Shown: piece by piece, positions 1 to 30,301 of the stretch
Layout of the letters: each line of letters begins with the position of its first letter
Numbering within the stretch: position 1 is the first letter of the stretch
Virus record (IMG/VR): IMGVR_UViG_3300010148_000051
Location: 1 to 33,926 of that record
DNA from: a virus
Reading direction: 5' to 3' (one strand)
Length of the DNA: 33,926 nt
Made by a program: the position numbers and the translations under genes
The notes under the pieces: generated by a model
Told to the model about the DNA's origin: nothing
Seen by the model: the letters and a program-made list of their open reading frames with translations, nothing else
Databases searched by the model: none

Positions 1-215
1 GTCCTATTGCGTTGAGTTGTTTTGATTTTTACAACTGTCCTGTTGTTTTGCTCCTCTTGGATAGATGGCTCGGAGCGGCCACCCGATTAAGCCGCTAGGG
101 CTTCTTCGAAATACAAATTGTTGTTTGCGTTTATAAAAATTTGAACGATTAAGGCTGATTCACGCCTGCATGCACTCTCCCCTTGATTCTAACCCGTCGA
201 AGCCATTGCGAGCCC
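1..215 (-). ncRNA. ssrA: tmRNA (transfer-messenger RNA), 5' part; 3' part lies beyond the window
   Basis: tmRNA rescues stalled ribosomes and tags the unfinished protein for proteolysis. Read on the minus strand from 215, the RNA starts GGGCUCG (the 5' half of the tRNA-like acceptor stem), followed by the family signature GGCUUCGACGGG and then GUGCAUGC. The resume codon GCA is at 128-126 and the tag frame ends in UAA at 89-87. The stop lies in a short hairpin (AAGCC/GGCUU), as in helix 5 of known tmRNAs. Next comes an H-type pseudoknot: GGGUGGC (84-78) pairs with GCCAUCU (69-63) and GCUCC (76-72) pairs with GGAGC (54-50). This order matches the one-piece bacterial tmRNA architecture. The acceptor 3' half and T-arm are outside the window. 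A strong promoter ends about seven bases upstream. That this is a phage copy is inferred from the adjacent phage genes. Confidence 0.92.
87..128 (-). CDS. tmRNA proteolysis-tag reading frame
   Basis: This is the mRNA-like segment of the tmRNA. From resume codon GCA it reads ANNNLYFEEALAA and then UAA. The terminal ALAA is the same as in the E. coli tag (ANDENYALAA), whose last residues are recognised by ClpXP. The middle differs from the enterobacterial tag and carries three Asn and two Glu. There is no start codon because translation resumes here on a stalled ribosome. Confidence 0.85.
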   Translation of the reverse strand, partial: ANNNLYFEEALAA

Positions 216-228
216 TTATTATAATTAT

Positions 229-257
229 AATATAACACGATTATATTGAGTTGTCAA
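229..257 (-). promoter_or_regulatory. Strong sigma70-type promoter of the tmRNA gene
   Basis: On the minus strand TTGACA (257-252) is followed by 17 bases and TATATT (234-229). Transcription is expected to start near 222, just before the tmRNA 5' end at 215. A 7-base inverted repeat (AATATAA/TTATATT) spans the -10 box and spacer. It is one of six near-identical promoters in this window. Confidence 0.85.
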
Positions 258-264
258 GTTTTAT

Positions 265-861
265 TTACCACTCAATATATATGTGCTTCATAAACCGCTT
301 CATTAGTTTGTCTTTATCTTCATCTCTCTCGCAGTTATGGAAAAGCCAAGCATACGTTGATTTCTTGCTGTTTATTTCTATCCCAATGAGTGAAATTTCT
401 TTATTCAACAATGCGTTCATTGTTTCATAATCTTCTAGTTCTAGGTCGTATTTCTCTGCTATATCAAACAACTCAGCCCATGAATTATTATCAATAGCAT
501 TCTTCGCTGCTTTAAATACACCTTCAAATTCATCAAAGCGAGGGTCATCAGGTGATAATTTGTCAGGATGAAACTTTCTGGCTATCTGTCTGAATAGTTT
601 TTTTGAATCGTAAGTTTCTTCTACTCTAGCCTTGGATATTTTTTTGATTAAAGGAGAAGGAGAAAAAATATTTTTTATTCTTTCTTGGTGTTTCTCATTT
701 AGTTTCTCTATTGCTATCCTTTTTTTGTTTATATATTTATTTTTATATTCTTCGAATTCTTGATTAGTTTCCCTTATAACTTCAGAGACATATTCAAGTT
801 CGTAGAACTCAGACCTGTATTTGTTTAATAATTTTTTGAATATTAATCTAAATTTCTTCAT
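265..861 (-). CDS. J-domain (DnaJ-like) protein
   Basis: J-domain proteins recruit Hsp70 (DnaK) to substrates and stimulate its ATPase. The 198-residue protein has a charged, coiled-coil-like N-terminal third (residues 15-65). A J-domain-like segment follows: helix II LFRQIARKFHPDK with the diagnostic HPD at 98-100, then an acidic loop and the helix III region. Typical J domains sit at the N-terminus; here it is central and the Gly/Phe and Cys-rich parts of DnaJ are absent, so it resembles a small specialised J protein. The ATG overlaps the last codons of the upstream NTP-transferase-like gene (ATGAAGAAATT), suggesting translational coupling. The tmRNA promoter starts directly after the stop codon. 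The substrate is unknown. Confidence 0.7.
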   Translation of the reverse strand: MKKFRLIFKKLLNKYRSEFYELEYVSEVIRETNQEFEEYKNKYINKKRIAIEKLNEKHQERIKNIFSPSPLIKKISKARVEETYDSKKLFRQIARKFHPDKLSPDDPRFDEFEGVFKAAKNAIDNNSWAELFDIAEKYDLELEDYETMNALLNKEISLIGIEINSKKSTYAWLFHNCERDEDKDKLMKRFMKHIYIEW

Positions 862-1762
862 CTTGCTCTAAGTAGTTTCTTGCAATCGGTTTGAACTTTT
901 GTCTCGTAAGAATCGTCTTTGTAGGGCGTTTTATGTCTTTATCAAAATTAGCATAAATAAACTTCTTATATTCACCCCAAGAAGAGACGTTATAGAAATT
1001 ATCTACTTGTAATTGATTAGCCAGAGCCAGATCAAAAGGTTGAAATACTTTTTCGATTGGAAAGAACCTAGCAGACCATCTGTCTTCAATCGGAAGTGCA
1101 TCATGCTCTCGCCAGTCTGATCCGGGCTTGAACCGTCCGGTGCCAGTCCTAATAACTTTGCGAAACTCTATGAACTCTTCCTTGGCAAAAGTAAAAGAAG
1201 TATATAAACCATCTTTGAAAGTTTTGCCGTCAGAAGATATATAAAAGTTTCTAGAAGAAGATATTTTTTTTCTGTGTTCTCTAAGTTGCCACGCCGGGAA
1301 GTATCCATAAGGGAAACTGACGTAATATTTATTTGGCACTATCCACCTAGACAATTCATCAGCTATTTTGAATATAGACAAAGATCCGTGTATGACTGAC
1401 CAAGACAAGCAATCTCTTTTGTCTCTATCTTTGGGGTGTATAGGTACATAATATATTGGTATATATCTAATCTTTTGGTCTGGTCTTCTCTCGTGTCTCC
1501 TGTGGGCGTACACGGGGTCTTTGACAAAGTCACCCAGCTTTTTCTTGATCAGAGGAGATATATCATCATTGCAAATAATCCATATAGTATCGCACCCTGC
1601 ATAGGCACACTCCACTACCGCTGCTTCAAGCAAAGAATAATCAGGTGCGATTGGCATTAGACAATCTGGCCATGGTTGTTCAAAATCTAAAGGCTGGCCT
1701 GCAATAGGCACAATTCCTGCTAAGTGGAAGTATGTTGTATCATTTTCTCTAGTAACTTCCAT
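848..1762 (-). CDS. Nucleotidyltransferase-like protein (GT-A / NTP-transferase fold)
   Basis: The N-terminus (about residues 13-90) has the layout of sugar-1-phosphate nucleotidyltransferases and MobA-like enzymes. LAGIVPIAGQPL replaces the usual Gly-rich NTP loop, PWPDCLMPI matches the 'K-P-L-lPI' strand, SLLEAAVVECAYAGCD matches the helix after the loop, and IWIICNDD matches the following strand. Such enzymes activate a sugar or similar group with NTP. The classical GxGTRxxP loop is not intact, so activity and substrate are uncertain. It is 304 residues long. ATG at 1762 follows AGAGG with good spacing and overlaps the upstream gene by about 43 bases. The C-terminal half (residues 150-304) is unrecognised. 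Confidence 0.55.
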   Translation of the reverse strand: MEVTRENDTTYFHLAGIVPIAGQPLDFEQPWPDCLMPIAPDYSLLEAAVVECAYAGCDTIWIICNDDISPLIKKKLGDFVKDPVYAHRRHERRPDQKIRYIPIYYVPIHPKDRDKRDCLSWSVIHGSLSIFKIADELSRWIVPNKYYVSFPYGYFPAWQLREHRKKISSSRNFYISSDGKTFKDGLYTSFTFAKEEFIEFRKVIRTGTGRFKPGSDWREHDALPIEDRWSARFFPIEKVFQPFDLALANQLQVDNFYNVSSWGEYKKFIYANFDKDIKRPTKTILTRQKFKPIARNYLEQDEEI

Positions 1763-2517
1763 GTATAACCTCTTTCTTGTTTCATATCATAGACTTCTTG
1801 AAAAGAGAAATCTGGCACATAATATGGGATCACCACTCTTTTATCCAACTCTATTACTGGTTTTCTATACTTCGCTAAACCCTTCGAGTTATACCCAACT
1901 ACACTCCCATTTATACCTTTGTCCTTCAACATTCTCAGTATTTTTAGTCTGGAGTATATTGTTGAAAACTCGGTGTCTTTTAGTTGTTCGTCATTCAAAT
2001 AAGATATGCCAACTATGTCCTTCACGTTTGATGTAACGCTTTCTCTCTCCGAGGGATAAAAGCGTACGCATTTAACAAACTCATCATCGATATCTTTTAT
2101 TTCATCTACAGGATGGTTTCCACCAACTTTCCAATTATAAAAATCATACACATAGTTCCACCCTGTTTCTCTAGAATCAAACTCATTTATTTTATTGTAA
2201 GAAATGTTTATTTTTTTATTATAATTTGTTGTGATCGATAAATTTTTATTTTCTTTACGGTAACTCGCAACATTGTTAGGAAAAAGCAAAATTCCGGACA
2301 TGCTCAACAAAAAACAAAGTCTGTCCCATACCTGCAATGGTGTTGGGTTGTCAACACCAAGCCATGAAAAGTCATAGTCTTTATACTGAACATCTAAATT
2401 GAAGGGCGGAATTGGCGATATCAGAACACAAGGTGTTTCTGTTCGAAATGAGTGCAACAAGCACGTAATTGTTTTTCCAATATTGATAGTGTCATAATGT
2501 AACTCTATGTTTTCCAC
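1720..2517 (-). CDS. Hypothetical protein
   Basis: This 265-residue protein is not recognised. It starts with GTG at 2517, preceded by AGAGG five bases upstream. It has no signal peptide or clear membrane span. It is rich in aromatic residues, with clusters such as WNYVYDFYNW (about 142-151), and has a hydrophobic stretch LCFLLSMSGILLFP (about 87-100) that looks like a buried helix/strand. It overlaps the NTP-transferase-like gene downstream and follows the 221-residue unknown after a few bases, so it belongs to the same cotranscribed unit. A role beside the NTP-transferase-like protein is possible, but only from position. Confidence 0.6.
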   Translation of the reverse strand: MENIELHYDTINIGKTITCLLHSFRTETPCVLISPIPPFNLDVQYKDYDFSWLGVDNPTPLQVWDRLCFLLSMSGILLFPNNVASYRKENKNLSITTNYNKKINISYNKINEFDSRETGWNYVYDFYNWKVGGNHPVDEIKDIDDEFVKCVRFYPSERESVTSNVKDIVGISYLNDEQLKDTEFSTIYSRLKILRMLKDKGINGSVVGYNSKGLAKYRKPVIELDKRVVIPYYVPDFSFQEVYDMKQERGYTWKLLEKMIQHTST

Positions 2518-2525
2518 TTATACCT

Positions 2526-3191
2526 CTAGTCTCTCTCGCCAAACTGCCTCATCATTTTCAGCATTTCTTCCGGCGATAATGGAGTATTTCTCTCCTTTCT
2601 TTTTTCTGGTTCGGGCTTGGGAGGCTCTAATATTATGCTGTACCCAGCACCCTTCAAAATGGGCACAACGTACCTTTGTAGACCTTCTCGTGTTGTCATA
2701 TATGCATCATCAACTGGTTGGCCATTTATAAAGCCTGAGCTGACTGCTAACTCTACAGGATATAACGGATTAGATCTATCTCCGGAAACAGTAGTAACTA
2801 CAGTCTGAAACAGACCATTCTTCAGTATACTTAGTTCAACATCGGAGCACTTATCTTGCAGTAGGCTCAGTTTTTTAGTTATCAGATAGCCGCACATTTT
2901 TTCGTCGCCGACGCCATGCTTTTCATTATCAGACCAATATAGTGAGATACCAATAGACGCGCCGGATATTACTTTGTTCATTTTCTTCGGATCATGAAAA
3001 AATTTATTTTCTGAATTATTTTTTATTTGGATCATATATTCTTGAAAATTTTTATCTGAATGTAGAGACTTGTATTCTTCGGTCCAAGAGTCATATGCGC
3101 CAAAGAAGATGTCTCTAACTTTGTCAAGAATATCATCAATTTCTTTATTCTCTTTTAGAAAAGATTTCCACTTACTTGTTGCTTTCTTCAT
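2526..3191 (-). CDS. Hypothetical protein
   Basis: This 221-residue protein has no recognised domain. The N-terminal 60 residues are highly charged and helical. The middle contains SGASIGISLYWSDNEKHG (about 76-93), which looks like a beta hairpin. The C-terminus carries a Pro/Lys/Glu-rich linker (PPKPEPEKRKERN) before a short helix LSPEEMLKMMRQFG, a pattern of proteins that dock a partner through a tail helix. The ATG at 3191 overlaps the upstream gene's end by about 20 bases. It lies in the dense accessory operon between thyX and the NTP-transferase-like gene. Confidence 0.6.
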   Translation of the reverse strand: MKKATSKWKSFLKENKEIDDILDKVRDIFFGAYDSWTEEYKSLHSDKNFQEYMIQIKNNSENKFFHDPKKMNKVISGASIGISLYWSDNEKHGVGDEKMCGYLITKKLSLLQDKCSDVELSILKNGLFQTVVTTVSGDRSNPLYPVELAVSSGFINGQPVDDAYMTTREGLQRYVVPILKGAGYSIILEPPKPEPEKRKERNTPLSPEEMLKMMRQFGERD

Positions 3192-3414
3192 CTATCGTCA
3201 CTCTTTTAAAAAATTTAATTGGCACTTCTCTAAATAGTATTCCATTTATTAAAATATCGTAAGCGTCGTACTCAAGAGGATCTGGTTTGTCTCCGTATCT
3301 ACTCTCAAATAGTTTATATGGGCCTTTCATTATAATACCATTTTCTCCACCTATTTCTTTGAATAAAATTTTCCCCCGCTTATTTAAAAAGAACAGATCA
3401 CCCTTCTTACGCAC
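3172..3414 (-). CDS. Small hypothetical protein, possible SH3-like fold
   Basis: This 80-residue protein starts with GTG at 3414, overlapping the end of thyX by eight bases (AGAGTGCGTAA), with AGGAAA upstream. It is basic and beta-strand rich: alternating short strands with turns (FFLNKRGK, GIIMKGPYKLF, DAYDILINGILFREVP). The size and pattern resemble the 68-residue protein at 14626-14832, which has a similar layout ending in an acidic tail. That comparison is by eye only. It is a likely cotranscribed accessory gene of unknown function. Confidence 0.6.
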   Translation of the reverse strand: MRKKGDLFFLNKRGKILFKEIGGENGIIMKGPYKLFESRYGDKPDPLEYDAYDILINGILFREVPIKFFKRVTIDEESNK

Positions 3415-4120
3415 TCTTTAGTTTCCTATAGGCCCACACTGATGAAGGCCATAGATCTGAAGCTATTTCTAGGCAAGCCACTGCGACGTCTTGTATTTCC
3501 TGCTGGGCACCGTCGTGAGTTCTCAAATCTATAAACTTGAGTAGGTTGTTCAGATTGACTGTGCCGTAATACTCTGTGTACATACTTTGCGGCAACACCA
3601 TTCTTGCTTGTTCTCTGCAGACTCCTGCTGACATCAACTGTTCGAACAACTCCAAAGACCTTTTCGCATGCTGCTTCATAGAATCGGAACAAGTTAATCC
3701 AAATTCAGGATCAGACAAATCTGGGTAAAGAATTGGATTTATTTCGTCGTTGTTTGAAGATTGTCTGTTTGACTTATGCTGTGTTCTGAATGTATTTGGG
3801 CAATGAAAAGTAAGATCTTTATCTGTATATCTACGGGAAATTTCGTTATAACTCCATGTCCTATGGCGATGGTGTTGAGAGCGCACAAATAAAGGAACAA
3901 CAAACTTAAAGGTAACCACATTGTGCTCGAACGTACTCGTGTGCCTATGTTTGACAAGATAGTTAATAAGTTTTTTATCTCGAGCATCTAGTTCCTCCTT
4001 TTCTACTCCAAATGAAACACGGGCACTGTTCACAATTGTGAGATCAGAGCCCATATGATCGACGTACTGAACCTTGCCTATATCGTCTCCGTATAGGTCG
4101 ATTGTTTTTTCATACAACAT
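3407..4120 (-). CDS. thyX: Flavin-dependent thymidylate synthase ThyX
   Basis: ThyX makes dTMP from dUMP using FAD, NADPH and methylene-tetrahydrofolate. The family signature RHRxxS is intact as RHRTWS (85-90) and continues YNEISRRY (91-98), which binds FAD and dUMP. The conserved STFEH (62-66) precedes it. The later helix QARMVLPQSMYTEYYGTVNLNNLLKF matches the substrate-binding region, and LRTHDGAQQEIQ is the usual C-terminal motif (family RxxxxAQxEI). At 237 residues it has the normal length. ATG at 4120 lies two bases after the upstream stop with GAGG eight bases before. With the class II ribonucleotide reductase it would supply deoxynucleotides for phage DNA synthesis. Confidence 0.95.
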   Translation of the reverse strand: MLYEKTIDLYGDDIGKVQYVDHMGSDLTIVNSARVSFGVEKEELDARDKKLINYLVKHRHTSTFEHNVVTFKFVVPLFVRSQHHRHRTWSYNEISRRYTDKDLTFHCPNTFRTQHKSNRQSSNNDEINPILYPDLSDPEFGLTCSDSMKQHAKRSLELFEQLMSAGVCREQARMVLPQSMYTEYYGTVNLNNLLKFIDLRTHDGAQQEIQDVAVACLEIASDLWPSSVWAYRKLKSA

Positions 4121-4121
4121 T

Positions 4122-4724
4122 TCAGTCCTCGTCTGGGTATAATTCTAATCCAAACTTTTTACCAGATGTTGGATCATAAGATACGTTGTCATCAATGTCC
4201 TTTAGTTCTTTATCTGTGATAACAAAGCCTGTCTCCTTTGAGCCCGGTGCTTTTCTGAAGCCTTGATCGTTATCATAGTCAATCTCATACATTGTAAAAG
4301 CCATGAAATTTTCACCCGGCTTGATTGCAATTCTTCGTCCAAAAACAAAGCCCCATTGTTTAAATTCTCTATTTAATTGGTCCATTTGATCTTCAGACAC
4401 ATTCAGTATGACTCGAGACTTCTCTGTAAGTCCACTGAAGATACCTCCGATAGCCATTGACTTTATACCTAAACTGTCCAGTCTTGTTTTTAATTTCTTA
4501 TCCAAGAAAACATTTAAACGTGGGTCTGGTGCTGTTGCCATCGGATTTTGTCCAGACATAATTCCAACAGTTTTAATGTCAGAATCCCCTTGAAGAATGC
4601 CCATGAGTTTATTGTACTTGGGTTCCCTATCCTCGCTAATTGTTGGGGTCTCGAGCAACACAGATTTGTTTCGGCCTTCGGTTATAACTTCTTTTATCAG
4701 TTTTATCAATTGTTCTTTATTCAT
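4122..4724 (-). CDS. DUF3293-like protein
   Basis: The protein is 200 residues when started at ATG 4724, which has GGGAGA eight bases upstream; the longer frame from 4739 lacks a comparable site. The N-terminus is a helical lead with many Lys and Glu. The pattern VGIMSGQNPMA (about 53-63), an Asn-containing helix LNVFLDKKLKTRLDSLG, then EKSRVILNVSEDQMDQLNREFKQWGFVFG resembles DUF3293 proteins, which have a TAxNP-type motif, an EkS strand and an 'l...fgQ.af' helix. The biochemical function of that family is unknown. It is encoded between the GroES-like gene (overlapping start/stop) and thyX, so it is cotranscribed with both. Confidence 0.55.
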   Translation of the reverse strand: MNKEQLIKLIKEVITEGRNKSVLLETPTISEDREPKYNKLMGILQGDSDIKTVGIMSGQNPMATAPDPRLNVFLDKKLKTRLDSLGIKSMAIGGIFSGLTEKSRVILNVSEDQMDQLNREFKQWGFVFGRRIAIKPGENFMAFTMYEIDYDNDQGFRKAPGSKETGFVITDKELKDIDDNVSYDPTSGKKFGLELYPDED

Positions 4725-4992
4725 CTCGTATTCTCCCATACACGTAATTTTCCAATACTAGGTAATTAGTTTCTCCTCGGGCTTTTACTTCCTGCATCAT
4801 TCTTCTTTCAACAACAATTGTATCCCCAACACCTATTTCTTGTGTACAATCTGCCGAGATGTCTAGGACATCACATAATACATGTGGGGTCTGCGGTTGT
4901 TTATAATCATCGGGTAAAACGATCATAGATTTTTCTTTTTTTTCTTCTATAGGTAAAATTAAAATATGACGATTTTTTGGCTCAAAATGCAT
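4717..4992 (-). CDS. GroES-like co-chaperonin (T4 gp31 / GroES fold)
   Basis: Co-chaperonins cap the host GroEL cage, and several phages bring their own (T4 gp31) to fold capsid proteins. This 91-residue protein has the size and strand order of GroES: an opening strand RHILILPIEEK, then a mobile-loop-like segment ending in IVLPDDYK, the strand HVLCDVLDIS, the conserved GVGDTIVV (GroES 'kvGD.Vif'), and a closing strand YLVLENYVYGRI (GroES 'eevliiseediLAi'). The mobile loop is short. Overall identity to GroES looks low, so the call rests on pattern. It is the first gene after a strong promoter (5026-5054) and has a consensus ribosome site GGAGG. Confidence 0.65.
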   Translation of the reverse strand: MHFEPKNRHILILPIEEKKEKSMIVLPDDYKQPQTPHVLCDVLDISADCTQEIGVGDTIVVERRMMQEVKARGETNYLVLENYVYGRIRDE

Positions 4993-5014
4993 TTTTCCTC
5001 CGTTAAAAAATAAA

Positions 5015-5044
5015 CCTTATAGTATAATATAACACACTATAAGG
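5015..5044. repeat. Inverted repeat over the -10 region of the GroES-like promoter
   Basis: CCTTATAGT (5015-5023) and ACTATAAGG (5036-5044) are perfect 9-base inverted arms around a 12-base centre that contains the -10 box. In minus-strand RNA the hairpin is followed by UUUAUUUUUU, so it could be an operator, or a terminator of the upstream reductase unit overlapping the promoter. Confidence 0.5.
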
Positions 5045-5054
5045 CTCTTGTCAA
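5026..5054 (-). promoter_or_regulatory. Strong sigma70-type promoter of the GroES-like/thyX operon
   Basis: TTGACA (5054-5049), a 17-base spacer and TATATT (5031-5026) on the minus strand. The expected start is near 5019, giving a 27-base leader with GGAGG before the ATG at 4992. It probably drives the accessory run down to the J-domain gene. Confidence 0.85.
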
Positions 5055-5057
5055 TGA

Positions 5058-5246
5058 TTAATTGTGAGAATTTTTCTTTTCTTGAATTTCAACACGCAAC
5101 TCTTTCAATTCTTTGATCGCTGCTAGTGCTGCTTTTCTGGCTCTTGGTGCGGCTGCTTTATATCCATAAGTACCAGACTCCACTTTGTCAACATCAACCA
5201 TCGCTGATTTCAGTTCTTCAATAATAATTTGTAAACGTTCTCTCAT
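5058..5246 (-). CDS. Histone H1-like (Hc1-type) small basic protein
   Basis: The protein is 62 residues, helical and basic. The central segment SGTYGYKAAAPRARKA (about 24-39) matches the family pattern 'e.G..kAA..RaRk' of Hc1-type bacterial and phage histone H1-like proteins, with a heptad-like helix before and after. Chlamydial Hc1 binds DNA through a longer Lys-rich tail; here the tail is only about ten residues, so DNA binding is uncertain. The ATG at 5246 has AGGAG upstream. It follows the ribonucleotide reductase gene by nine bases and is probably in the same transcript; the next promoter begins right after its stop. Confidence 0.5.
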   Translation of the reverse strand: MRERLQIIIEELKSAMVDVDKVESGTYGYKAAAPRARKAALAAIKELKELRVEIQEKKNSHN

Positions 5247-5255
5247 TATATTCTC

Positions 5256-7109
5256 CTAAAAGATTTCACAAGATCCACCTGCGCAGGCTAATTCACCTGA
5301 CAGATTTGTATCATCTTGTTCTTCTATAATTAGATCCAAATTTATTCTTTTCACATATTGCAAAAGACTTTCATACTCCTCTTTTGTGCAATCCTCGAAC
5401 GGTGCCTGAACATAAGTGTGATCAGAAAATGGCAAAACTGATAATCCATTGTAAGACTTTCTATTCAACCACATCCACTCTCCAACGCATTTCCACTCAG
5501 TTTGTTTGATTGTAACAGTAGCAGAAACATTGTGAGTATTATGGCCTGTTTGGTGCCCTCCTTGAATCCAAGTGTCACTAATATGCTTCACTCTCTTGAG
5601 GAGATCTAGTGCGCTTTCATGGCGTGTTATGGCACTCTTTGGTGCCATCTGAGGAACGCTTATGATCGCTGTATCGTGCGGTCGAAATTTATCATCTTCA
5701 ATCAATTGAGGTATATTATTAAGCAGATAAGTATATATTGCTTCATTCTTTCCTACGCGTATTCTGCGTAGATAATAGTCGTTATGCCACGCATGAATAC
5801 CAGAAGATGTACCAAGCGTCAAAGAGGTTGTCCCCGCTGGTTTAACGCAAGTGGTACGAGCAGCAGGCCTAATGCCGATTTGCATTGCAACTCGCCTATT
5901 TTCACTCTTTACCAACAAAGACGCTTTGTTTAGATCTAAACTTAGAATACCGCCCGAAGCAATACCCGTCATAGAAACACCAATAAGGGCATCCTTTTCC
6001 GTATTTCTTTGCCAGATAGGCCTTAGGTAGTGAAAGTCCGTGTATGAAGCCTGAAGGGTGCCTATAAACGTTGCTGCTCGTACTCTGTCTTCAAGGTCTT
6101 GCTGATCACTAACATCTGAAACATTTACTTCTGTGAGATTACAAAATTGATATGGCCTCAGTCCTATTTCGCAGCAGGGATTAGTCCCCCAATCTTTGTC
6201 GTTGGAAAAATAGAAACCCGGTTCTCCAGAACCAGACTCCTTAACTCTATCCCATATAGACATAAAAGTATTACGGTCAATACGATGCCGCATAAGGACA
6301 ACAGAATTGTTAGCTCTTCCGCGTTGAGGGTTAAGTTCCCACCAGTCACCTGCTTTCGCTGCGAGCATCTCTTCGTCGTCAGCGCTGAATAAAGAGATAA
6401 GAGCAGCGCGGCGAATACCCCCAGCCAAAACTGCATCCGCAATATGACAGATGATATCATGAACCTCAATGGGAGAAAGTTGGTCTCCGTTTTCTTTTTC
6501 ATTTAACATTCCTTCTATTTTTACTAGACACTCTCTAAGTGGCTGTGGACCGGGGGCTTTACCGCCGGATGTAACAAGTCTTGCACCTTTTGGGCGAATA
6601 TCAGAAAAATCAAAGCGCAATTTTGATGTGCCTTTGAAGTAAGACGCTACAAGTGCTTTTACAGCATCAGCCCATCCTTCAATGGAATCACCTATCAAGA
6701 AACGACGGCTCCTGTTGGATGGCTTTCTGATCTCTGGTAGTTTTTCTACATGGTGGTTTTGTACAGAAAAACCTACACCAGTACCACCCAACAATAAGAA
6801 CATGATCTCAGAGAAAACATGGTAATTATCAACAGGACAGTAAGCACAATTGAATATCCTGTTAGGAGAAACCTCTATTGGTTTACCACCAAACTGCATA
6901 GAGCGCATTGACGGCAAAACCTTTTTGTCATATACGAACCTGTATGCATTTTGTATCTCCTGTTTCATTTTTGGGAATTTTTTAATGTGCATATCCATAT
7001 TTCTGGTCACTAATTCTTGCCAGTTTTCTCTTCTATTCTCGTCCTCTATATACCTAGCATACTTCATATGTACGGTAACGTCGGACAAAATTTTATTCTC
7101 TAAATTCAT
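5256..7109 (-). CDS. nrdJ: Adenosylcobalamin-dependent (class II) ribonucleotide reductase
   Basis: This enzyme reduces ribonucleotides to deoxyribonucleotides using coenzyme B12 to make a thiyl radical. The key residues fit the monomeric Lactobacillus leichmannii type. C88 (FNCAYC) and C323 (QFCNL) form the active-site pair. C312 in NPCCE is the radical cysteine, 11 residues before C323 as in the family, and E314 is the conserved acid. The C-terminal pair C609/C614 (CAGGSC) shuttles electrons. The finger-loop region with GGTGVGFSVQ is present. At 617 residues it is shorter than the L. leichmannii enzyme (739). No intein interrupts the frame. ATG at 7109 has AGGAG. It depends on host cobalamin, a link to B12-containing hosts. 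Confidence 0.92.
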   Translation of the reverse strand: MNLENKILSDVTVHMKYARYIEDENRRENWQELVTRNMDMHIKKFPKMKQEIQNAYRFVYDKKVLPSMRSMQFGGKPIEVSPNRIFNCAYCPVDNYHVFSEIMFLLLGGTGVGFSVQNHHVEKLPEIRKPSNRSRRFLIGDSIEGWADAVKALVASYFKGTSKLRFDFSDIRPKGARLVTSGGKAPGPQPLRECLVKIEGMLNEKENGDQLSPIEVHDIICHIADAVLAGGIRRAALISLFSADDEEMLAAKAGDWWELNPQRGRANNSVVLMRHRIDRNTFMSIWDRVKESGSGEPGFYFSNDKDWGTNPCCEIGLRPYQFCNLTEVNVSDVSDQQDLEDRVRAATFIGTLQASYTDFHYLRPIWQRNTEKDALIGVSMTGIASGGILSLDLNKASLLVKSENRRVAMQIGIRPAARTTCVKPAGTTSLTLGTSSGIHAWHNDYYLRRIRVGKNEAIYTYLLNNIPQLIEDDKFRPHDTAIISVPQMAPKSAITRHESALDLLKRVKHISDTWIQGGHQTGHNTHNVSATVTIKQTEWKCVGEWMWLNRKSYNGLSVLPFSDHTYVQAPFEDCTKEEYESLLQYVKRINLDLIIEEQDDTNLSGELACAGGSCEIF

Positions 7110-9664: not shown

Positions 9665-9693
9665 AATATAACCTGTATTATAACGCTTGTCAA
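9665..9693 (-). promoter_or_regulatory. Strong sigma70-type promoter of the exonuclease unit
   Basis: TTGACA (9693-9688), a 17-base spacer and TATATT (9670-9665) on the minus strand. It lies immediately after the recA terminator, so a new transcription unit begins here. The leader to the 55-residue gene is about 15 bases. Confidence 0.85.
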
Positions 9694-9703
9694 ATAAATA
9701 AAG

Positions 9704-9735
9704 AAAAAACCTCCATGCTCAAAAGAGCATGGAGG
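9704..9735 (-). terminator. Intrinsic terminator after recA
   Basis: A perfect 11-base stem (CCTCCATGCTC / GAGCATGGAGG) with a 4-base loop, followed on the minus strand by TTTTTT and a T-rich stretch. It begins about 20 bases after the recA stop codon and precedes the next promoter. It is the clearest terminator in the window. Confidence 0.95.
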
Positions 9736-9756
9736 CATATGCTTCAACAACGTCGT

Positions 9757-13823: not shown

Positions 13824-14632
13824 TATAACTCCTGTATGAAATGCGTGTAATGTTTAGAGTAATAATAACTCTCTTGTTCATCTGTTGCCCAGATGGCAAA
13901 CGAAGATAGTCTTTCAAGTTTGTTATTTTCCTTCATCATACCTTTTATGTTTGGGAGGATAGTAACATCATTTGCTAGATCTTCTTCATTTATATTTATA
14001 ATATAACTTGTTTCAGTTATGTTGTCAAGAGAAAAGAGTAACTTTTCTTCTTTTTCTTCTAAAAGACCCCACCCTATAGTGCATATTTTACTTATCTTTT
14101 TTATATCTTTTCTAGAGTCGAAATCTGGTTCGACGTTAGAACAGTAATTCAGAGTGTGAATAAGTGAATATACATAATGGTTCAATTTTTTATAATATTC
14201 CAGTACTGTTCCGTGACCAACCTGATCTATTACTAGTTTATTATCAATAATGAGTAATTCATCGATCATACCAGATCTTGCATACTCTTGCAATACATTA
14301 AAATGAACCCTATTCCTTTTTATCTCAATGGCAGATGCATATTCAAGATCAGGATACATATAAATAACTTGCATTTTGACGTGAGATAAGCCCTCTAGAA
14401 CTCTTAGGGTTGCTCCAGATACCTTACCACTACCACAAACAAATAGAATGCCCTCAGAGGCAGATTTGATGGCTTTCTTGCGTGGTCTATAATCAATTGA
14501 GTCATATTCTTCTACAGAATTTTTCTTCTTTATTCCTTTGCCGGCATCTAATAACTCCACATGATATTGTTCATGTTGCTTGAATAATTTTGCTATCTTA
14601 CAGCCAGCGGAACCAAGTCCAACTATTAACAC
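13823..14632 (-). CDS. Tubulin/FtsZ-like GTPase family protein
   Basis: The 269-residue protein follows the tubulin superfamily order. T1-type loop: MLIVGLGSAGCK (GLGSAGC at 5-11). T4-type loop: LFVCGSGKVSGATLRVLE (66-74 in place of GGGTGTG). The segment YPDLEYASAIEIKRNRVHFNVLQE has the guanine-contacting Asn (N112), and LLIIDNKL resembles FtsZ 'IvIpNdkL' and tubulin 'IDNeAL' (N131). The T7-type acidic loop is EPDFDSRKD (D170, D172, D176). IGWGLLEEKEE (186-196) parallels FtsZ 'mGsGxAxGe.Ra'. It is shorter than FtsZ, and the glycine-rich loop is altered, so GTP hydrolysis is not assured. Phage tubulins such as PhuZ position DNA inside the host. GTG start at 14632 has GGAGG. The alignment is by eye only. 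Confidence 0.65.
   Translation of the reverse strand: MLIVGLGSAGCKIAKLFKQHEQYHVELLDAGKGIKKKNSVEEYDSIDYRPRKKAIKSASEGILFVCGSGKVSGATLRVLEGLSHVKMQVIYMYPDLEYASAIEIKRNRVHFNVLQEYARSGMIDELLIIDNKLVIDQVGHGTVLEYYKKLNHYVYSLIHTLNYCSNVEPDFDSRKDIKKISKICTIGWGLLEEKEEKLLFSLDNITETSYIININEEDLANDVTILPNIKGMMKENNKLERLSSFAIWATDEQESYYYSKHYTHFIQEL
14000..14028 (-). promoter_or_regulatory. Strong sigma70-type promoter embedded in the tubulin-like gene
   Basis: TTGACA (14028-14023), a 17-base spacer and TATATT (14005-14000) on the minus strand, inside codons for LDNITETSYIIN. The match in both boxes, spacing and GTTATATTAT context equals the intergenic promoters. It would let the lipoprotein-like and one-helix peptides be expressed without the tubulin-like protein. 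Confidence 0.7.
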
Positions 14633-27460: not shown

Positions 27461-30301
27461 CTAAAATTCGACTCCAGATCTTGTAATGATGAAGTCAATT
27501 GCGATAAACTCAATAGATCTTGCAGGTTTTACAAAAATCTTAGCGTATAGAATGTTTCGATCAATTAGATCAGGTGTTGTGGTGGTTTCATCGAGAACCA
27601 ATTTGTACTCAGTGATACCTAGGTCTGCTTGGACAGAAGCAAGAACTTGATTTGCTTGAGCCTTGAAGCGGTTCCAAGTAACTTGGACGTTCTGATCAAA
27701 CAAGATCGTATCGGCAATAATTCCAATTTGTCTTTTCAGATAAATCATCAATCTACGAACGTTGATTCTGTCCAAAGCAGACGCGTCTTGTTGTAGGGTC
27801 TTTTGTCCAAATATAACAGTGTCACCTGTTGAAGGGAACTTAGCGATTGGGTTCACACTTAGTTCGTACAAGGTATCTCTGTCTGCTTTTGTTAGGTGTA
27901 AACTAGTACCGATAACAGCAGGGCCCGAGGTACCACCTAGTCTCGCCAAACCACCGCGATTGAACCCCGCTGGGGCAAACCAAGGCTGTGACAAGTTATC
28001 GGATTTTGCAATTGCACCAATTGCGGCAACAGAAGGAGGAGCCTCTAAGATAGTGTTACCATCGTTTAGGGTGTCTCTCATTCTGACATTTGGGAAATAC
28101 GTAGCAGCATAGGAACTATCGATCTGTCTTGTTAATAGTGTCCCTTTCAATGTTGAGATGGACGCTACTTGAGCAGAAGATTCAGTTTCCCATGTGTCTC
28201 TGGCTATACCATCGACATCCATAACGGCTAAACAATCACCTCTGTCTTGTGCTATGCCGATCATTTTATCACCAAGCGAACCATTGATAATACCCGGCAT
28301 AGACATCAATTCACAAGTGATATTCTCTTTGTACCTAACCATTTCAAGTGCCTGATCGATTGTGTTATAAGCATACCCATCAGTTGTTCCATCAGTGATT
28401 CTTGTGTCACTAAAAGGATTAGCATAACGAATATCTACACCATCAGCACCACCGAAGAAAGGAGCAGCGAATTGCTTGATTCCTAAATCTAGAGCACCTG
28501 ATGCGCCAAGATGATAGTTTATACTATCTCCACTGTCAAAAGATCCTGACTCAAAGAAATATGTTGTGGCACCCACTGAGGATGATTTGATATCGTCTAA
28601 AGAGAAGACCTGAGCAGAACTCGAGAGTGCATCACTTTCTTCTAAGTGCATTGTGAAATTCTTTCTTTTTCTTGCAATGTCTGCAAAACTACCATCATGA
28701 TGACGCCTGTTTGCTAAAGCATGTCGCAACCCATACATCGCTGTGGCGCCATAATCAGAGCCAACATTGGTACCCGTGGTTGTTAAACCAAACACAGGCC
28801 AATCAAAAGATGCTGTGTAGCCGGCAGGGATCCCATCAAGAAAAACACCTTCTTGATTTCCTTTCATCAATGAATTTCCACCATCAATCCAATCAAATTC
28901 AGTAACAGCTGATGCCACATCCGCCATTCCTCCTTTCACTGTAGGAATAGAATCGGCGTCTTTCTTTTGCCCTGCCCATCCGAATGGGGTGTCAAGCTTG
29001 TTGGCATCAGATGATACCTCAACCCGAACGTACCCAGATATATTAGGATATTGCCCAGATTGAGTAAACTTTCCTAAAGTTTGGTTCCAAGTTTCAGAAA
29101 AGTCACCTATGCGTTTTGATATAAAGTTTGAACTATTAGGGTTCAAATTTACTCCAGTATAAGATTCAACGACGTAATCACGATCAATGGTTACCGCTCT
29201 CCTCACGATCTCTAAAGTAAAAGAAGCGTTAGGGTTTAGACCTGAGCCTGTTTTTATATCTTTGATAACACAGTAAAAATCTTTTTGAAATTCTTCACCG
29301 CTATTCAAGGCAATCAATCTAAATAATTTCTTTTGTTCAGTATTTACTCCTAGTTTCGGACCAATAAACCAACCTGATTTGGCCTCGACTAAGTCCTGCT
29401 CAAAATCATCAGCGGCAATGTTATCAGATCCATCAAGACCTAGAATCCATGCATAAACTTTACCAGTCTCGCTATTCGTAACTTTGCTTTTTAGGTCAAC
29501 ATCAAAAGTCTCTCCTAGGAAATATTTTTTGTTTGTACTAACAGTCTTGTTATAGTTTTTATCATTCTTTATTTTTGTTGGATCAGTGTTTAGGACGTTT
29601 CTAATATAATTCGCAGAAGACTCGTTGAAGTTTACATTTGCATATTCAACACTACTACTTCCACCATTCACAACTAGTGTAAGACCATAATCATTAGCGT
29701 TAGTCATAACAGCGGTACTCGTAAGTCCGTTTGCATGTTTTAGTTTTGCCGGTTGATTAGACCCGCTTGGTACCGTACCGCTCAGTGCAATTTGTGCTCC
29801 ATTTGTGTAAAATATTGCCGCAAGAGATGCATTAGCCTGAAAGGGGGTGTTTGCAGAGGTACTGGTATCTTCGTTACCACCTGAAGCAGCCAAGAAGAGA
29901 CCGAATGCCGCTTTTGTCCCGCTTATACTACCAGCACTATAGGTGGTTCCCATTTTCCAACCTGCAAGATTGGTATTGTCTTTTCCCAAGCCAAGTAATC
30001 GAATATATTTTACAGGACCAACACCGGCGGCTAAGTATGCTTGAGCAGCATAAGCAGCGTAGTTTGGAGCAGCAGTGTTACCTTGTCTCCAAGGGTCACT
30101 TTGACGGACGCCATCGATTGGTCTTCCAAAGACATCAATAAAGTCACTAAGGTTTTTTATTTTCACCGGCTTCATAGCGGGGCCAGTTCTGGCACGACCA
30201 ATCAAAATAATACCATCCGCTTCTTGTGCTGGTGGCAATTGGGATTGATCAATCTCTCTTAGTTGAACTCCCGGTGAAACAAAGTCAAATTTAGCAGGCA
30301 T
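27461..30301 (-). CDS. Tail sheath protein (T4 gp18-like, enlarged)
   Basis: The contractile sheath subunit has 946 residues, longer than T4 gp18 (659), so extra surface domains are inserted. The N-terminal core is typical: FVSPGVQLREIDQSQLPP (about 6-23) followed by GIILIGRARTGPAMKPVKI and the FIDVFG strand, forming the linker arm and first core strand. The C-terminal core is RINVRRLMIYLKRQIG, then WNRFKAQANQVL (the 'tw..i...v+..L' helix) and AKIFVKPARSIEFIAIDFIITRSGV, the closing strands. The middle (about 110-560) is Ser/Gly/Asn-rich and variable, as in other sheaths. ATG 30301 has AAGGAG, and a candidate late motif lies 29 bases upstream. Confidence 0.88.
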   Translation of the reverse strand: MPAKFDFVSPGVQLREIDQSQLPPAQEADGIILIGRARTGPAMKPVKIKNLSDFIDVFGRPIDGVRQSDPWRQGNTAAPNYAAYAAQAYLAAGVGPVKYIRLLGLGKDNTNLAGWKMGTTYSAGSISGTKAAFGLFLAASGGNEDTSTSANTPFQANASLAAIFYTNGAQIALSGTVPSGSNQPAKLKHANGLTSTAVMTNANDYGLTLVVNGGSSSVEYANVNFNESSANYIRNVLNTDPTKIKNDKNYNKTVSTNKKYFLGETFDVDLKSKVTNSETGKVYAWILGLDGSDNIAADDFEQDLVEAKSGWFIGPKLGVNTEQKKLFRLIALNSGEEFQKDFYCVIKDIKTGSGLNPNASFTLEIVRRAVTIDRDYVVESYTGVNLNPNSSNFISKRIGDFSETWNQTLGKFTQSGQYPNISGYVRVEVSSDANKLDTPFGWAGQKKDADSIPTVKGGMADVASAVTEFDWIDGGNSLMKGNQEGVFLDGIPAGYTASFDWPVFGLTTTGTNVGSDYGATAMYGLRHALANRRHHDGSFADIARKRKNFTMHLEESDALSSSAQVFSLDDIKSSSVGATTYFFESGSFDSGDSINYHLGASGALDLGIKQFAAPFFGGADGVDIRYANPFSDTRITDGTTDGYAYNTIDQALEMVRYKENITCELMSMPGIINGSLGDKMIGIAQDRGDCLAVMDVDGIARDTWETESSAQVASISTLKGTLLTRQIDSSYAATYFPNVRMRDTLNDGNTILEAPPSVAAIGAIAKSDNLSQPWFAPAGFNRGGLARLGGTSGPAVIGTSLHLTKADRDTLYELSVNPIAKFPSTGDTVIFGQKTLQQDASALDRINVRRLMIYLKRQIGIIADTILFDQNVQVTWNRFKAQANQVLASVQADLGITEYKLVLDETTTTPDLIDRNILYAKIFVKPARSIEFIAIDFIITRSGVEF

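Follow-up and report, generated by a model that had tools for sequence, protein, structure and literature searches.

Genes for tmRNA (ssrA) are known in phages but uncommon, as the first-pass annotation of the locus described here had remarked: a 2021 survey that covered 18,146 phage genomes reported them in 402, a share given there as 2.3% (PMC9004378). According to the same survey, 2.5% of the one-piece forms are marine, while 50 of the 53 two-piece forms are marine or aquatic (PMC9004378). As to the reason why phages carry ssrA, the papers offer suggestions only. Early-phase degradation of host proteins has been suggested as a role of phage tmRNA (PMC9004378), and the growth of lambda-immP22 in E. 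coli needs tmRNA, according to work cited in a passage of PMC12656738. An exact-phrase literature search on the function of phage-encoded tmRNA returned nothing. The mycobacteriophages Bxz1 and Wildcat, Bacillus phage G, the Streptomyces BE phages, and the Stenotrophomonas phage Marzo likewise have a tmRNA with a tag and a tRNA-like domain (PMC4131195; PMC8928761; PMC13191466).

The locus analyzed here lies at the left end of a virus record of 33,926 bases, the whole of which is called the window below. Its tmRNA and those of its relatives carry tags starting with ANNN and lie in a neighborhood of genes for ribonucleotide reductase (RNR), ThyX, and a J-like protein, unlike the one-piece tmRNAs of Bxz1, Wildcat, phage G, the BE phages, and Marzo. 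Among deposited phages, the best blastn match, found in mycobacteriophages, covers only 23% of the gene. With so limited a match, the tmRNAs of the window's group form a separate sequence group of a kind already known in phages.

OM43 phage Melnitz and the pelagimyophages share with the window an ssrA gene in a T4-like phage, its location near thyX, and a proposed role in maintaining or redirecting translation (PMC9004378). The tmRNA of Melnitz is permuted and two-piece and has a glutamine riboswitch (PMC9004378), whereas that of the window is one-piece, and gathering-level Rfam scans detected no riboswitch in the window or in the scanned tmRNA loci. Huge phages also bear a ribosome rescue RNA, but together with SmpB (PMC7162821), of which we found no instance in 19 related phage records. 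The nearest isolate by RNR is Microcystis phage Mel-JY01 (PP395634), with identities of 64% for RNR, 40% for the helicase, and 38% for the tail sheath; it shares with the window a similar recombinase-polymerase-helicase-RNR gene order, and no tmRNA is annotated within the 30-kb stretch that was viewed. Since its RNR is only 64% identical, Mel-JY01 is too distant for host assignment.

The tmRNA gene at the end of the window

The left end of the window is a real, phage-owned tmRNA gene, most of which is present. As the first-pass annotation had proposed, positions 215 to 1 on the minus strand represent the 5' two-thirds of a one-piece tmRNA, with the contig end cutting the gene. The features of the window are given here with their coordinates and strand; L150 is a relative in which the gene is complete.

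1..14, minus: 5' strand of the following pseudoknot, CAACGC...GGAC, interrupted by the contig end and completed in L150
1..215, minus: tmRNA (ssrA), 5' 215 nt of about 333, by RF00023 match and identity with L150
31..46, minus: hairpin ACAAC..GUUGU (helix 9), 3' of pseudoknot 1
50..83, minus: pseudoknot 1 (H-type), GGUGGC/GCCAUC (83-78 with 69-64) and GCUCC/GGAGC (76-72 with 54-50)
87..128, minus: tag reading frame GCA..UAA, peptide ANNNLYFEEALAA; identical tag in eight relatives according to ARAGORN
209..215, minus: acceptor stem 5' half GGGCUCG; partner CGAGUCC outside the window, seen in L150
229..257, minus: promoter TTGACA-N17-TATATT, exact; transcript predicted to begin a few bases upstream of the tmRNA 5' end
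265..861, minus: 198-aa J-like protein, HPD motif, upstream neighbor; Pfam DnaJ E 0.0064
3407..4120, minus: ThyX thymidylate synthase, syntenic block
4717..4992, minus: GroES-like co-chaperonin, syntenic block
5256..7109, minus: ribonucleotide reductase (RNR), anchor of the syntenic block
27461..30301, minus: tail sheath, marks a contractile-tailed phage

The Infernal search with RF00023 that had been proposed for this locus was run under permissive settings as a 600-base search, and the window matched positions 1-267 of the 374 positions of the model, 3' truncated, with 30.9 bits and an E value of 1e-10. With the last third of the gene absent, a value short of the 47-bit gathering score is to be expected; complete relatives score 80-116 bits, and L150 reaches 98.4 bits over the full model. 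The incompleteness of the gene also explains why ARAGORN made no tmRNA call on the window; it identified a one-piece tmRNA, with a tag identical to that of the window, in L097, L102, L103, L108, L149, L150, L153, and L157. The signature previously described as GGCUUCGACGGG was found as TTCGACGG, starting from 201, and the H-type pseudoknot was recovered at 83 to 50. The tag with its ALAA end was found as well: from 128 to 87 on the minus strand, the codons GCA AAC AAC AAU UUG UAU UUC GAA GAA GCC CUA GCG GCU UAA encode ANNNLYFEEALAA, an open frame with a small hydrophobic degron end followed by UAA. Pseudoknot 1 sits after the tag stop, and both of its stems (helices 7 and 8) covary in 23 relatives. 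The hairpin in which the stop codon had been placed gains no support as a conserved element, since the consensus fold of 23 copies gives no hairpin enclosing the stop.

The missing third is visible in L150, a stretch of a 35,469-base contig. Along the 215 nt present in the window, L150 shows 99.1% identity, and it has both the tag ANNNLYFEEALAA and the promoter as in the window. Beyond the cut point, L150 continues with the second pseudoknot, the T-arm, CGAGUCC as the 3' half of the acceptor, and a CCA that is encoded in the gene, its sequence running on to ...GCGGACAGGGGUUCGAUUCCCCUCGAGUCCACCA. Its acceptor GGGCUCG/CGAGUCC forms seven pairs, including G3-U70, which is the alanine identity pair read by AlaRS; in the window, G3 lies inside and position 70 outside. 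The acceptor 3' half had been predicted as CGAGCCC; the CGAGUCC of the sister gene departs from this by a single substitution, toward a chargeable RNA. An intact gene is expected to show the T-arm and ...CGAGUCCACCA beyond position 1 of the window, where the window's own 3' third could still carry a mutation. The first-pass annotation had considered a remnant in case these parts were lacking; the gene of the 99.1% identical L150 is complete through CCA, by which a remnant is largely refuted.

Conservation of structure and tag among relatives

Public viral contigs were scanned with a 5' tmRNA signature, which gave 15 stretches, and with a 3' signature, which gave 24, many contigs being in common. 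With RF00023, 27 distinct virus records score above the gathering threshold. Some of the relatives were retrieved through their tmRNA; in many RNR relatives, most of which are fragments, no tmRNA was seen.

The alignment comprises 23 full-length copies, and the structure, named on L150 with the addition of the consensus long helix, has 65 pairs. Across the 23 copies, 90.9% of the cells of this structure are paired, and 37 pairs have changed on both sides. The covariation score is 0.359, compared with 0.143 +/- 0.008 in shuffles (0 of 500 as high) and at most 0.089 in slid controls; related sequences may beat shuffles without any structure, but the slid controls, which keep the relatedness, score far lower. 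The acceptor stem and the T-stem are 100% paired in the 23 copies, the long helix and stem 1 of pseudoknot 1 are 99-100% paired, and covariation is seen in pseudoknot 1 as well as in the T-stem. For the later pseudoknot (helices 10 and 11), only 59-66% of the cells are paired, in a region where the relatives vary in length and are poorly aligned. The pairs G1-C72, G2-C71, and G3-U70 are invariant in 23 of 23 copies.

Within the tag, the three Asn codons show changes between AAC and AAU only (24 rows, window included), which has the appearance of selection on the peptide. On these sequence grounds, the gene is deemed intact in the sister phages and selected for its structure, its alanine identity, and its tag. 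The tags of the relatives end in ALAA, RLAA, AIAA, or AVAA: RLAA replaces ALAA in L043, L081, L096, L099, L105, L106, and L154, and AIAA or AVAA replaces it in L155 and L158.

Promoter of the tmRNA gene

As far as its sequence tells, the tmRNA of the window is served by a strong promoter of its own, which is of the sigma-70 type and one of six identical ones. The motif TTGACA-N17-TATATT occurs on the minus strand at 257 to 229 and at 5054, 9693, 13274, 13648, and 14028, the five other matches mentioned in the first-pass annotation being five further exact copies on the same strand. It is absent from the plus strand of the window and from 300 first-order simulated sequences. Five of the six promoters are intergenic by the gene calls, and the one at 14028 falls within an ORF, the GTG start of which may be set too early. 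A strong terminator-like hairpin (12 pairs, then a T-run) is located at 9709-9736 on the minus strand, just before the promoter at 9693.

The promoter of the tmRNA is kept in L150, L095, L149, L153, L157, and L043. In L097, L102, L103, and L108, no such promoter is found directly upstream of the tmRNA; instead, an ORF no longer than 64 codons and ending ...GSEKASTE reads 27 nt into the tmRNA before it stops at an internal UAG. The acceptor of these four genes is GGGUCCG/CGGAUCC, compensated on the 3' side and with G3-U70 kept. The earlier suggestion that the promoter belongs to the phage's own regulation is consistent with the six identical copies and with the site kept in six relatives, but it does not extend to the whole family, as these four genes illustrate.

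Genomic context

In addition to the tail sheath, the window encodes tubes, a baseplate, a tape-measure-like protein, a polymerase, SSB, UvsX, and a DnaB-like helicase; the lineage is one of large, T4-like, contractile-tailed phages. The order RNR-GroES-ThyX-unknown genes-J-like-tmRNA is recognizable, whole or in part, in ten other virus contigs, in two of which a member of the block is missing or off the fragment. In G019 (184,889 bases), the tmRNA is about 23 kb from RNR. Where present, RNR is 73-90% identical across the syntenic contigs. The reading of the tmRNA as phage owned is thereby sustained, with phage genes alongside it and ten contigs in which the tmRNA follows the RNR-ThyX-J-like block. 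Flanking host genes would have pointed to host DNA according to the first-pass annotation; the other genes of the window are phage genes.

The upstream neighbor had been described as a J-domain gene. Its HPD motif is invariant in ten orthologues, in favor of this assignment, but the call is a weak one, as the Pfam DnaJ match, with an E value of 0.0064, remains below the cut-off. The ten orthologues of this J-like protein are only 32-45% identical, and the neighboring genes reach up to about 90%.

We detected no phage integrase in 23 related records and no SspB in the phage records. Two exact tmRNA signature patterns are absent from 84,980 species genomes (exact matches only), and blastn of window positions 1-5300 against phage records gave no match. 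The phage neighbors, the synteny, the lack of an integrase, and the lack of an exact genome match together indicate that the gene belongs to the phage lineage. The lack of integrase, SmpB, and SspB further indicates that the gene is no attachment-site trophy and does not form a self-contained system, and the tmRNA should use the SmpB of the host.

Proposed role and alternative explanations

Taken as a whole, the locus is, in our view very probably, the ssrA gene of a T4-like phage lineage, encoding a one-piece tmRNA which would operate in ribosome rescue via host factors. Host RNA polymerase would transcribe the tmRNA, probably in a program shared with the other genes bearing TTGACA-N17-TATATT, and RNase P together with 3' nucleases would trim the transcript. 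Host AlaRS would charge the tmRNA via G3-U70, and host SmpB would bring it, once charged, to stalled ribosomes; the broken messages on which these stall would in many cases arise as host DNA and mRNA degrade. The ribosome would switch to the ANNNLYFEEALAA frame and be released at UAA, and the ALAA end would direct the tagged fragment to degradation by host ClpXP-type proteases. The likely gain for the phage would be a larger number of free ribosomes while the infection runs, and a further gain might be a supply of tmRNA that is independent of the survival of the host ssrA gene.

Redirected proteolysis could instead be the main use of this tmRNA, with a tag whose ANNN start evades a host adaptor or alters protein stability, and with amino acids being recycled or host regulators being removed. 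The tags are conserved as peptides yet vary at their ends (ALAA, RLAA, AIAA, and AVAA), a possible sign of selection on the protease signal, and a recycling role has been suggested for the tmRNA of phage Melnitz (PMC9004378). However, no phage SspB adaptor was found, and ribosome release alone accounts for the conserved tRNA-like part and for G3-U70; we regard this alternative as conceivable but rather unlikely. We are doubtful, too, that the tag has been retuned, with its constant ANNN start and variable ALAA, RLAA, AIAA, or AVAA end, into a phage-controlled proteolysis switch beyond ribosome rescue, and we give this little credence.

The other alternatives concern the nature of the gene itself. 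A fragment or decoy titrating SmpB, comparable to the tmRNA of mycobacteriophage DS6A with its tRNA-like domain only, would be in line with a window that holds the 5' part only, and such a tRNA-like-only phage form is known (PMC4131195). However, the window has the opposite part, with the tag and pseudoknot 1, and its close relatives have the whole gene, in which the tag frame is open and synonymously constrained. A remnant or decoy, to which we attach a very low probability, was rejected in view of the complete L150 and the compensatory change over 23 copies. A host origin, be it host DNA or a host ssrA taken from an integration site, is comparably improbable. It would be compatible with ssrA being a common attachment site in bacteria (PMC9004378), but phage genes adjoin the tmRNA, its locus is the same in ten phage contigs, and neither an integrase (23 records) nor an exact match to either of the two patterns (84,980 genomes) was found; the phage neighbors, the synteny, and the lack of an integrase ruled it out. 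The sole above-threshold Rfam match in the window is RF04321, which, with 54.7 bits at 87-286 on the minus strand, is over the gathering score and would make the gene a two-piece, circularly permuted tmRNA, like most marine phage tmRNAs. Yet the stretch aligned to the T-arm and acceptor of RF04321 is the promoter, with many non-pairs, in 11 relatives with a complete one-piece gene the same model also matches the 5' half, and ARAGORN calls the relatives one-piece. The RF04321 match is deemed a misassignment since its T-arm stretch is the promoter and 11 one-piece genes match too. The permuted form was rejected, as no T-arm or CCA end is present upstream of 215, and its probability is in our estimate almost nil. 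Since one-piece phage tmRNAs can exceed the gathering score of RF04321, such genes could be mislabeled by annotation pipelines.

With the one-piece ssrA of a phage lineage as the preferred reading, the tmRNA is passed on in one-piece form, in most cases at a constant locus, within a coherent group of uncultivated large phages. Two-piece forms dominate among marine and aquatic phages in the published survey, a picture that this group would widen if the contigs are aquatic. The tag variants and the sister group with the small ORF provide material for testing why phages carry ssrA.

tRNA genes are located close to the tmRNA in several relatives. A tRNA-Gly (GCC) lies directly 3' of the tmRNA in four of them (L150:3774-3847, L097:546-617, L102:8764-8835, and L103:1794-1865), and a tRNA-Ala (TGC) is found near it in three (L095:2481-2556, L101:4041-4116, and L157:4492-4567). 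The contig of the window breaks within the tmRNA, beside a region where the gene content of the relatives differs, and a conserved RNA next to a variable region may cause assembly breaks.
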